Source of the DNA: an uncultured Clostridia bacterium
GTDB lineage: Bacteria > Bacillota > Clostridia > Christensenellales > UBA1242
Length of the DNA stretch: 64,000 nucleotides
NCBI GenBank assembly: GCA_944345705.1
Contig: CALVML010000001.1
Coordinates: 49,574 to 113,573, forward strand
Reading direction: 5' to 3'
Numbering within the stretch: the first letter of the stretch is position 1; each line of letters opens with the position of its first letter. Below, one piece after another: positions 7,639 through 48,043 of the stretch. A program made the position numbers and the translations under genes. Under the pieces are notes generated by a model. The model saw nothing but the letters and a program-made list of their open reading frames with translations, was not told the DNA's origin and searched no databases.

Positions 7639-8370
7639 ATGTCAGGACACTCAAAATGGCACAATATACAAGCTAGAAAAGGTAAAAGTGATGCGGCTAG
7701 AGGTAAGATCTTTACTAAAATTGGTCGTGAAATTGCTGTGGTAGTAAAAACAGGAGGTGCTGATCCTATATCTAACCCTAAATTAAGAGATGTAATCGCT
7801 AAAGCAAAACAAAACAATATGCCAAACGATACAATCGAAAGAAGTATTAAAAAGGCATCAGGAGAACTTGCTGGCGTAAACTATGAAAGTTGTACTTATG
7901 AAGGCTATGGGCAAGGTGGTTCTGCTGTTATTGTTGAATGCTTAACTGATAATAAAAATAGAACGGCTGGCGATGTTAGACATTCTTTTGATAAATTTGG
8001 CGGATCACTTGGTAATAGTGGATGCGTAAGTTATCTATTTAATCGAAAGGGCATTGTCGAAGTAGAAAGGACTGATAAAATTGATAGCGATGAATTTATG
8101 CTTGAAGTTTTAGATATGGGTGCTGTAGATATTAACGAATACGACGATACTTTCGAAGTTATCACTCAAGCAAACGAACACAATAAACTTGCAGATCAGC
8201 TTAAAAACGCAGGCTATAATGTTTTGAATAGTGAAACAACTTTAGTACCAGATTCATATATTAATCTTGAAAATGACAAACTTGAAAAGTTCATAAAAAT
8301 GATTGATGCTCTAGAAGATTTAGATGATGTACAACAAGTTTATCACAATGTAAATATTGATGAAGAATAG
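7639..8370 (+). CDS. YebC/PmpR family DNA-binding / translation regulator
   Basis: A 243-residue member of the highly conserved YebC/TACO1 family. It starts with MSGHSKWHNIQARKGKSDAA and has the KAKQNNMPNDTIERSIKKASG helix pair and the EGYGQGGSAVIVECLTDN motif. Members have been described as DNA-binding regulators and, more recently, as factors that help ribosomes through difficult sequences. ATAAGGAG (7622-7629) precedes the ATG. It sits just before ruvC, and in many bacteria yebC is adjacent to ruvCAB. Here a structured repeat and a separate promoter intervene, so ruvC is probably transcribed independently. Confidence 0.93.
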   Translation: MSGHSKWHNIQARKGKSDAARGKIFTKIGREIAVVVKTGGADPISNPKLRDVIAKAKQNNMPNDTIERSIKKASGELAGVNYESCTYEGYGQGGSAVIVECLTDNKNRTAGDVRHSFDKFGGSLGNSGCVSYLFNRKGIVEVERTDKIDSDEFMLEVLDMGAVDINEYDDTFEVITQANEHNKLADQLKNAGYNVLNSETTLVPDSYINLENDKLEKFIKMIDALEDLDDVQQVYHNVNIDEE

Positions 8371-8373
8371 TCT

Positions 8374-8515
8374 ATATTACCAGAAACCGAACTTGCTTGC
8401 AAGGGTGAGGCTGATGGTCATACACACTATGTGATGGACACAATTTATTGTGTTTTTGCGTTTAGCAAATTTAAAATTTAACTTGTTTAAATTTTAACAT
8501 CACATAGTTTATATT
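8374..8515 (+). repeat. Cloverleaf intergenic repeat, single copy (unit A)
   Basis: One unit of a repeat family also present at 47339-48030 and 57314-57578. An outer perfect 10-bp stem CTATGTGATG/CATCACATAG (8427-8436 with 8498-8507) encloses three nearly contiguous hairpins: ACACAAT/ATTGTGT (8438-8453), TTTGC/GCAAA (8455-8469) and TTAAAATTTAA/TTAAATTTTAA (8471-8497). A fourth hairpin CTTGC/GCAAG lies upstream (about 8392-8403), flanked by GAA on the left and GTGAGGCT on the right. The unit lies between yebC and ruvC. No coding potential. Confidence 0.88.
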
Positions 8516-41772: not shown

Positions 41773-42249
41773 ATGTTCACTATCATAGCTTTCATTCTTA
41801 CTCTGCTTGGCTGTATAAACTGGCTTAGCATTGGACTATTACAGTATGATTTTGTTGCTGGTATTTTTGGCTATCAAGCAAGCGTATTCTCAAGAATAAT
41901 CTATATCATCATTGGCGCTGGTGCATTATTTCTAACTTTTAAATTAATAAAAGGTAAAGGTGTAATTGCGGTATTTAGTAAAAATAATAAAAAGGACTTA
42001 AAAAAGAATATTGATAAAATAGGTAATAAAGATGAAGAAAATCTAGATCATGCTTATAGCAGAGTAAACGCAAATATTGAAGCAGGACGCGATCTAGATG
42101 AAAACAGAGATAATCGCAAGCATGACTATAATAATTACTCAAGGCATGATCATATTGATCACTATGACGGCTACACTGACACAAGCCACAATCATCATTC
42201 GTCAAGTAAAAGTTTATTTGATGAAGAATTTAATGATTACGACAGGTGA
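41773..42249 (+). CDS. DUF378 membrane protein with charged His-rich tail
   Basis: A 158-residue protein. The first 65 residues form the two-span DUF378 domain (FTIIAFILTLLGCINWLSIG, then a Phe/Tyr-rich second span). The remainder is hydrophilic: a Lys-rich stretch (about 70-85), then Asp/Arg/Asn and a run rich in His, Tyr and Asp (DHIDHYDGYTDTSHNHHSS). DUF378 proteins are usually only 60-80 residues, so the tail is an addition. AGGAGG (41764-41769) precedes the start. The tail might bind metal; function unknown. Confidence 0.75.
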   Translation: MFTIIAFILTLLGCINWLSIGLLQYDFVAGIFGYQASVFSRIIYIIIGAGALFLTFKLIKGKGVIAVFSKNNKKDLKKNIDKIGNKDEENLDHAYSRVNANIEAGRDLDENRDNRKHDYNNYSRHDHIDHYDGYTDTSHNHHSSSKSLFDEEFNDYDR

Positions 42250-42254
42250 TGAAA

Positions 42255-42338
42255 ATGTTTAAATATCTTTCTTTTTTTTATCTTATTTCTTTATTTCTTG
42301 GAAGCCTTTTTTGCAATTTGCTATTTAACCTATTTTAG
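42255..42338 (+). CDS. Possible 27-residue hydrophobic peptide
   Basis: ATG 42255 opens a 27-codon frame, mainly Phe and Leu with one Cys (MFKYLSFFYLISLFLGSLFC...), five bases after the DUF378 stop, with GGTGATG just upstream as a weak ribosome binding site. It could be one membrane helix. It may be chance, since AT-rich DNA gives such frames often. No homology is claimed. Confidence 0.25.
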   Translation: MFKYLSFFYLISLFLGSLFCNLLFNLF

Positions 42339-42411: not shown

Positions 42412-42526
42412 CTTGGTCTCGCAAGCGAGCAAGACGCCATCTGGCGTCTTTTCTTTGAGCCACCAGGCTCAAAGAAACAATCACTTTTTTGCTCTCACAA
42501 AAAAGTGATGCTCGCTTGCCAAGAGA
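42412..42526. repeat. Cloverleaf element beside rlmH
   Basis: A perfect 10-bp outer stem GCAAGCGAGC/GCTCGCTTGC (42421-42430 with 42510-42519) encloses three perfect hairpins: AAGACGCC/GGCGTCTT (42431-42450), TTCTTTGAGCC/GGCTCAAAGAA (42451-42476) and ATCACTTTTTTG/CAAAAAAGTGAT (42480-42509). TCTC (42417-42420) and GAGA (42523-42526) extend the outer stem past a bulge. Almost every base is paired. GC content is well above the surroundings. It lies between the convergent DUF378 and rlmH genes. Its plan matches the 148-bp repeats, but the sequence is unrelated. Confidence 0.9.
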
Positions 42527-42538
42527 AACCCCTATATT

Positions 42539-42994
42539 TTATTTGTGATAAGTGCTTCCGCTTATTATCATAAAAGCCCTATATATCTGTTCAACCAAAA
42601 CTACCCTAGCGAGATTATGTGGAAGAGTAATTTTGCCGAATGACAATCTAAAGTCAGCCTGCTCCTTCACCTTTTCGCTAACCCCATACGAACCTCCTAT
42701 AATAAAAGTGATTTCACTGTTGGAAAGCGAAACTTTTTCAATTTTCTCAGCAAGTTCATTACTCGTCAACTGTTTCCCCTCGATATCAAGCAATATCTTA
42801 TATCCTCTAGCAGTCCTTAAGATTTCATCCCCTTCGCCTTCCAGACATTTCTGTTTATCAAATTTCTCCTGCTGTGGCAATTCTAAAATCTTAAGTTTAC
42901 AAAATCTAGATACCCTTTTTCCATATTCACTGACAGCATCAATCCAAAATTTTTCTTTTAAAGCACCTACGCATACAATGTTTATATTTATCAT
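42539..42994 (-). CDS. rlmH: 23S rRNA pseudouridine-1915 N3-methyltransferase
   Basis: RlmH methylates pseudouridine 1915 in helix 69 of 23S rRNA. The 151-residue SPOUT protein starts with INIVCVGALKEKFWIDAVSEY and has FIIGGSYGVSEKVKEQA and the C-terminal LARVVLVEQIYRAFMIISGSTYHK, where the final YHK is conserved. It is slightly shorter than the common 159 residues. The cloverleaf element begins 13 bases beyond its stop. Its start overlaps the end of the CPBP protease gene by four bases. Confidence 0.96.
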   Translation of the reverse strand: MININIVCVGALKEKFWIDAVSEYGKRVSRFCKLKILELPQQEKFDKQKCLEGEGDEILRTARGYKILLDIEGKQLTSNELAEKIEKVSLSNSEITFIIGGSYGVSEKVKEQADFRLSFGKITLPHNLARVVLVEQIYRAFMIISGSTYHK

Positions 42995-46043: not shown

Positions 46044-46340
46044 TGGTGCGGGCGGTGGAAACCCTACCCTAAAAATCTGTCGATTTTCAGGGAACCCATG
46101 TCTCACCCACTGTGGGTTCGACTCCCACCTTGTTTACATAAAAAAAAGACTTACATATTGCATAAATCTTTTTTTAAAACTTTGACTCTCACTGGTGCGG
46201 GCGGTGGAAACCCTACCCTAAAAATCTGTCGATTTTCAGGGAACCCATGTCTCACCCACTGTGGGTTCGACTCCCACCTTGTTTACATAAAAAAAAGACT
46301 TACATATCGCATAAATCTTTTTTAAAACTTTGACTCTCAC
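46044..46340. repeat. Two tandem units derived from the tRNA-Leu 3' end and flank
   Basis: Units 46044-46192 and 46193-46340 differ by one base and one T-run length. Each starts with the acceptor-end sequence TGGTGCGGGCGGTGG of the neighbouring tRNA (minus orientation), continues with about 60 bases of new sequence, then has TGTGGGTTCGACTCCCACC, the T-arm of the same tRNA but in the opposite orientation, and ends with the tRNA's own terminator region. The T-arm part therefore looks inverted between GGTGG and CCACC. Confidence 0.85.
46290..46323 (-). terminator. Terminator of tRNA-Leu
   Basis: Minus strand AAAAAAGATTTA pairs with TAAGTCTTTTTT around CGATATG-type loop, one mismatch, followed by T. 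An identical structure in the duplicated unit lies at about 46140-46176. Confidence 0.75.
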
Positions 46341-46422
46341 TGGTGCGGGCGGTGGGAGTCGAACCCACACGGTTTCCCACTTGCCCCTTAAACAAGCGCG
46401 TCTGCCATTCCGCCACGCCCGC
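46341..46422 (-). tRNA. tRNA-Leu (anticodon AAG)
   Basis: An 82-base gene with encoded CCA (46343-46341). Acceptor GCGGGCG/CGCCCGC, D-arm with GGCGGAATGGCAGACGC, a T-arm GTGGG-TTCGACT-CCCAC and a shortish class II variable arm. The anticodon stem CTTGT/GCAAG encloses the loop TTAAGGG, so the anticodon is AAG (reads CUU; with inosine also CUC/CUA). Aligning to the Bacillus tRNA-Leu loop TTGAGGG supports this reading. A34 leucine tRNAs are unusual in bacteria and imply TadA acting on a non-arginine tRNA. Confidence 0.92.
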
Positions 46423-47338: not shown

Positions 47339-48030
47339 TATATCAGAGCGAAACTAATGTTAATTCAAACAATAATGTCACAATTCATTATGGATTTGAT
47401 CAAACTTAATTATAAACAAAGCGAGCAAAACAACATCACCTTGTTTTTATTATCAGAAGCCGAACCAAGCACAACTTTAGTTGTATTTGAGTGAGGCTGA
47501 TGGTCATACATACCGTGATGAACACAATTTATTGTGTTTTTGCGTTTAGCAAAATTAAAATTTAACTTGCTTAAATTTTAACATCACATAGTTTATATTA
47601 TCGGAAGCCGAACCAAGCACAACTTTAGTTGTATTTGAGTGAGGCTGATGGTTATACATACTGTGATGAACACAATTTATTGTGTTTTTGCGTTTAGCAA
47701 AATTAAAATTTAACTTGCTTAAATTTTAACATCACATAGTTTATATTATCGGAAGCCGAACCAAGCACAACTTTAGTTGTATTTGAGTGAGGCTGATGGT
47801 TATACATACTGTGATGAACACAATTTATTGTGTTTTTGCGTTTAGCAAAATTAAAATTTAACTTGCTTAAATTTTAACATCACCTTGTTTATATTATCGT
47901 AAGCCGAACTTGCTTGCAAGAGTGAGGCTGATGGTCATACATACTAAGTGATGAGTATGCGTTAGCACACAAATTCGATAGAATTTATTAAAATTTTATG
48001 CTAATAAAATTTTAACATCACATAGATAAT
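47339..48030 (+). repeat. Tandem array of cloverleaf repeats (five units)
   Basis: Units begin at about 47339, 47453, 47601, 47749 and 47897; the last four starts are spaced by exactly 148 bases. Units 47453, 47601 and 47749 are nearly identical. The first and last are divergent subtypes. Each complete unit has an AGCC/GGCT stem around a hairpin (ACAACT/AGTTGT), then GTGATG ... CATCAC enclosing ACACAAT/ATTGTGT, TTTGC/GCAAA and TTAAAATTTAA/TTAAATTTTAA. The last unit keeps the plan with different hairpins. Units 47339 and 47749 end CATCACCTTG, the others CATCACATAG. It lies between convergent ferritin-like and clpX genes. Confidence 0.92.
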
Positions 48031-48043
48031 ATTCTCAGTTAAA

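Follow-up and report, generated by a model that had tools for sequence, protein, structure and literature searches.

We interpret a compact stem-and-hairpin structure beside the rlmH gene, in a 64,000-nucleotide stretch of DNA from an uncultured Clostridia bacterium (the window), as a member of a clade-restricted class of short, non-coding, non-autonomous mobile elements that are defined by the shape of a four-way junction. We assign this reading a probability of roughly 0.5, and place the rlmH-side element in the second of two groups, A and B, into which the class divides. The window comes from a genome of 1.28 Mb in 37 contigs, for which the titles of some related metagenome-assembled genomes (MAGs) lead us to infer a gut source.

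A stem with three hairpins beside rlmH

The element sits between two convergent genes, rlmH and a conserved small gene here termed orfX, with the rlmH stop codon about 20 nt away. Its parts and neighbors are as follows, the outer arms and all three leaves being read directly from the sequence.

41773-42249, plus strand: orfX, a conserved small protein gene placed by tblastn synteny, convergent with rlmH
42421-42430, plus strand: 5' arm of the outer stem, GCAAGCGAGC
42431-42450, plus strand: leaf 1, a perfect 8-bp hairpin with loop ATCT, terminator-like on the plus strand
42451-42476, plus strand: leaf 2, a perfect 11-bp hairpin with loop ACCA
42477-42479: three unpaired bases between leaf 2 and leaf 3
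42480-42509, plus strand: leaf 3, a perfect 12-bp hairpin with loop CTCTCA
42510-42519, plus strand: 3' arm of the outer stem, GCTCGCTTGC
42539-42994, minus strand: rlmH (23S rRNA pseudouridine-1915 methyltransferase), with NCBIfam matches just below the curated cut-off

A first-pass annotation of this DNA had described a perfect 10-bp stem enclosing perfect hairpins of 8, 11 and 12 bp, which positions 42421-42519 contain exactly; it had also counted four unpaired bases, where we find three. GC content is elevated (47.8% over the 115-nt stretch that it named, 42412-42526, vs 30.9% for the window), and within the element leaf 3 has an AT fraction of 0.70, compared to 0.45 in leaf 1. The predicted folding energy was -44.7 kcal/mol as DNA (z = -11.0) and -70.3 kcal/mol as minus-strand RNA (z = -10.0), values equaled by 0/200 shuffles in each case. 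Scanning the window for perfect stems of at least 7 bp with at least two leaves returned two matches, one of them the rlmH-side element, and no match in any of five random sequences of 64 kb; a looser setting gave a single match in the five random sequences. By sequence the element is single-copy in its own genome, with only weaker partial matches elsewhere there, and its orthologs occupy the same position in two sister species (95% in G022, at loci L003 and L072; 97% in locus L071).

The orfX product has no NCBIfam match, and we infer a membrane protein from its hydrophobic start. Immediately 3' of orfX (42255-42338, plus strand) lies a reading frame for a 27-aa hydrophobic micropeptide, MFKYLSFFYLISLFLGSLFCNLLFNLF, with look-alikes, judged by eye, at the same position in about ten further lineages; it is probably a conserved small gene that has escaped annotation. 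Elsewhere in the window (46044-46422), two 149-bp tandem copies share a stretch with tRNA-Leu and adjoin an intact tRNA-Leu, and similar sequence was found in L071. This locus and L080 are both filed under the prefix CALWJU01, that is, one MAG, yet carry different rlmH genes, and the bin probably mixes two species.

Relatives defined by fold

The first-pass annotation had further proposed that the element follows the same plan as a 148-bp repeat family in the window while differing in sequence, and that such elements form a class defined by shape, an idea that the absence of any shape relatives would refute. We searched for relatives irrespective of sequence. To qualify, a candidate needed a fully paired outer stem (8 bp or longer) enclosing three fully paired hairpins (6 bp or longer each), with no joint exceeding 4 nt. 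Seven elements were detected in 464 kb of the window's own genome and nine in 1.31 Mb comprising 80 named loci, compared to none in five random sequences, each 464 kb long and matched to the own genome in trinucleotide composition. A second, strict search (stem score 9, no joint longer than 3 nt, no GC filter) allowed anywhere from two to six leaves. It yielded 33 elements of 80-100 nt in the sampled stretches (7 in the own genome, 11 in G022, 12 in G061 and 3 in G064, with groups A and B pooled and orthologs in the own genome and its sister G022 counted in both), and every one of them (33/33) had exactly three leaves; none had two, or four to six. Applying a GC filter left the same 33. Their junctions are compact, with at most two unpaired bases in 24/33, a property that the search partly imposes through its 3-nt limit on joints.

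Controls were nearly devoid of such structures. Under the strict settings, 662,642 bases from 20 other genomes of the genus contained one AT-only four-leaf match, and 926,027 bases from 57 other loci (L093 and L095-L150, which are for the most part more distantly related Clostridia and include Streptococcus and some members of the genus) contained one AT-rich two-leaf match, while random sequence (4 x 464 kb) contained none. A looser setting uncovered one A-type element among the 20 genus genomes, in G007, of which a further locus (L295) carries a B-type element. On these sequence data the class appears clade-restricted and is seen in some of the sampled genomes. The shared plan was recovered by both the window scan and the shape search, and the test that could have sunk the class idea instead favored it, with relatives numerous in the own genome and some of its relatives. 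We refer to the one-stem, three-leaf plan as a clover.

Group A is the 148-bp family itself, with arms of the form GTGATG..CATCAC, a stem and three leaves. Two of its occurrences in the window are relevant here.

8361-8515, plus strand: a single A-family copy, facing an empty site in the sister species G022
47432-48033, plus strand: an array of 148-bp A-family copies in tandem, with the same one-stem, three-leaf plan

The array adjoins the 3' end of clpX, and its A-A junctions read TTTATATTATCGGAAG or nearly so, a sequence that may resemble part of the Firmicutes dif site. Counting partial copies, A-family matches numbered 17 in the own genome (G000), 23 in G022, 14 in G007, 5 in G061, 7 in G062, 22 in G063, 24 in G064, 46 in G066 and none in G065. 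A hammerhead ribozyme was considered for the A family and dropped after inspection by eye.

Group B, to which the rlmH-side element belongs, has arms that are mostly unrelated in sequence. Many of its members nevertheless carry, as group A does, an AT-rich leaf beside one arm (AAAWTTTTAA..TTAAAAWTTT), and this leaf, the shape and some shared sites are all that links A to B. Both lists exclude rows with GC below 0.19 and score below 26; two G061 rows that the script labeled B (L280 1568 and L281 12715) were reassigned to A by eye, leaving 14 B elements in 200 kb of G061. The set of 29 B elements analyzed below omits duplicates from sister species or the same contig, as well as one poor match (L080 12530). 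B paralogs in G061 and G064 are alike over the clover and, by eye, not in the flanks, and show compensatory changes in their arms. Several G061 elements (L274 1159-1836, L276 792-3030 and L282 18143-18937) share the hairpin modules AAAAACTCG..GAGTTTTT and AAGGCAAAAC..GTTTTGCCTT under different arms, with further GC-rich palindromes adjoining.

Clovers occupy the rlmH-orfX gap in 6/26 syntenic loci: the three loci of the window clade and L075 (B in each), L078 (B and A) and L080 (two A). In the 20 remaining gaps there is a simple hairpin or nothing, with no clover at the threshold used. The B elements of L075 and L078 are alike (87/108 aligned columns), and a tree of RlmH and GreA sets the window clade apart from these two loci, which makes at least two gains at rlmH likely. 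Support for that inference is partial, as the tree was built by a quick method with a midpoint root and places the window clade beside two long, distant branches. At another site (L171), bounded by a gene and a tRNA-like match, G022 has a B element and G066 an A element, and in the own genome different sequence lies there, implying that A and B use some of the same spots.

Pairing, movement and competing explanations

Pairing has been maintained in both groups. In 26 A copies from one subfamily, 95.9% of cells were paired (shuffles, 91.0%), and double changes occurred at 14/34 pairs (shuffles, 4.6) and in 35 cells (shuffles, 5.9); the covariation signal vanished once the partner was slid. Three rows returned by the A search proved not to be A clovers and were kept out of the A alignment. 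Among five B elements compared between the own genome and G022, substitutions affected 2/396 stem, 4/69 loop and 32/989 flank positions, such that stems changed more slowly than flanks (p = 0.0017) and loops did not differ from flanks (p = 0.29); two gaps fell in stems and six in flanks.

Comparison with G022 also demonstrates that A copies are mobile, as far as sequence can establish it. Three A copies face empty AT-rich counterparts and show duplication of a TATATT(A)-like target, about 6-7 bp long, and the family's ends, as set by these sites, look unlike each other by eye. Clean empty target sites, which the first-pass annotation had suggested looking for, thus exist for the 148-bp family and could not be demonstrated for the rlmH-side element. 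No clean empty site emerged for any B element in the comparisons made: L055 2219 and L184 do not differ by a simple insertion, sequence matching next to L155 12575 ends short of the B element, and the surroundings of L187 lack a counterpart in the own genome. Since five B elements, including that beside rlmH, lie at the same places in the own genome and its sister, group B shows no recent movement, and insertion of B elements, the rlmH-side copy included, is inferred. A motif sampler run on B flanks scored 187.6 at width 12 and 200.6 at width 16, above nulls of 159-165 and 173-178 that were made with fewer starts, and its motif was too inconsistent to use.

Sequence that is free, leaf number and pairing that are constrained, and A copies that move together make non-autonomous mobility with junction recognition the most likely explanation. 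In the mechanism we envisage, a single strand would fold as a compact four-way junction of one stem and exactly three hairpins; an enzyme acting in trans would recognize this junction on single-stranded or cruciform DNA, and the sequence would be free to diverge provided that pairing persisted in all four helices. That strands fold in the cell, that shape is what is recognized and that such an enzyme exists are inferences, and our searches found no enzyme that moves clovers. More tentatively, and with less confidence than in class membership itself, we suggest mobile DNA defined by shape, in which the three-leaf strand would be the substrate of an unknown recombinase, and copies may diverge and swap hairpin modules while remaining members.

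The strongest competitor, which we consider somewhat unlikely though far from negligible, is an RNA-level element, either a strong bidirectional terminator or an RNA-stabilizing 3' structure. The position of the rlmH-side element, just past a stop codon and between convergent transcripts, suits such a role, as do the conserved B stems and two terminator-like matches (0.4 expected in the region), leaf 1 on the plus strand and leaf 3 on the minus strand, both internal to the element and the former resembling an intrinsic terminator. By crude ORF calls, the 29 B elements are intergenic and seldom between divergent genes (16 in tandem gaps, 8 convergent, 2 divergent and 3 at edges, compared to 124, 27 and 42 among the own stretches' gaps of 100 nt or longer), and the stop side is the nearer one in 11/16 tandem gaps. 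This placement is compatible with insertions being tolerated there as well as with terminator function, which keeps the RNA explanation open. Nonetheless, termination does not need three leaves, and the 20 syntenic gaps without a clover also count against this explanation.

Selection acting on a transcript should leave more G-U pairs than A-C mismatches on the transcribed strand. Clover stems in 40 A copies show no such excess (13 G-T vs 17 A-C), in a count of low power in which some mismatches stem from imperfect alignment. An energy-chosen A structure, which also pairs the lead domain and tail, has 224 G-T and 77 A-C cells; we set this result aside, though it is unfavorable to a DNA reading, as that fold is not the clover and was picked with G-U pairs allowed. 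Likewise, the AT-rich leaf of B elements is oriented both ways relative to the nearest gene end (9 vs 7 as computed, and 7 vs 9 after two gene-call corrections), with 4/29 undecided and 9/29 lacking a stop within 200 nt. The crude ORF calls mis-set some neighbors, including those in the window and L075, which were corrected manually, solely for the orientation count. The absence of strand bias in mismatches and orientation leans toward DNA over RNA, at low power. A known RNA family was rejected as the element's identity: Rfam returned only a tRNA at gathering score in the window, six sub-threshold matches in the region of the element and only tRNAs in seven clover-bearing loci.

Other explanations fare worse. 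A site of chromosome architecture, in which the junction is bound and kept for a structure-specific nucleoid or repair protein, would account for the constant leaf number, and four-way junctions are equivalent to the centers of cruciforms and are bound by proteins (PMC9180970). We judge it improbable, however, given that clovers were not seen in the sampled stretches of 19/20 other genus genomes and that A copies are inserted. We hold a mutational by-product to be equally doubtful: template switching within palindromes could keep arms perfect and nest hairpins without selection, in keeping with the perfect stems and with the hairpin modules shared in G061, yet a runaway process should also yield leaf numbers other than three, and flanks change faster than stems. 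Chance coincidence with a long terminator, which the first-pass annotation had named as the fallback, can draw on the single full-length sequence copy in the genome; it is contradicted by the 200 shuffles, the empty random sequences and the many shape relatives, and we regard it as hardly credible. Compared to these alternatives, a mobile class defined by shape remains our preferred reading.

Comparison with known systems

A phage or plasmid origin was rejected, as neither the rlmH-side element nor the A family matched phages or plasmids, and one exact-pattern scan of viral contigs with the A family gave no match. A search of open-access literature revealed no one-stem, three-leaf repeat class among the titles and abstract openings of the matches listed. 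One survey of stem-loop families describes single stem-loops, adjacent pairs and ten families of unspecified more complex structure, such that a branched family there cannot be excluded (PMC2267715).

Small bacterial mobile repeats and MITEs (ERIC, RUP, Correia/NEMIS, RPE, CIR and YAPL) resemble clovers in being intergenic, about 100-200 bp long and stably folded, and some show target duplications; they are described as sequence families forming long stem-loops (two-armed in CIR), often with terminal inverted repeats (PMC2229807, PMC10969869). Clovers differ in having one stem and exactly three leaves in both groups, and group B lacks a common sequence. They do not meet the terminal-inverted-repeat criterion of MITEs, as A ends are unlike by eye and B ends are only the stem arms; target duplication with empty sites is met by A at three sites and by no clean B case, and a multi-copy sequence family exists for A, while the rlmH-side B element is single-copy and some B paralogs occur in G061 and G064. 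Repeat and MITE finders based on sequence or terminal repeats would miss a class held together only by its fold.

In REP/BIME/REPIN systems, which act with RAYT (Y1) nucleases, the folded strand is the recognized form, and the palindromic, extragenic nature of the repeats recalls clovers. REPs, however, are palindromes of 20-40 bp (PMC3733652). A Y1 or REP-associated nuclease, raised by the first-pass annotation, finds no support as the mobilizer, as the own genome has no Y1_Tnp match (0). Matches over the cut-off were found in 3/16 genomes (L304 in G064, L305 in G063 and L306, a short fragment, in G022), which we take to be IS200-type; their fetched surroundings contain no clovers, with hairpins near the gene instead. 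The L304 frame has an internal stop.

The bcr1 repeat of the Bacillus cereus group, about 155 bp long, is a structured mobile intergenic repeat of similar size, from another bacterial group. If an enzyme does read the junction, clovers would offer a natural system for structure-directed DNA recognition, and for such a reading the likeness is to the attC site of integrons, which is recognized by the shape of its folded single strand while its sequence varies. The attC site is one imperfect hairpin beside a cassette, whereas the clover is a stem with three leaves.
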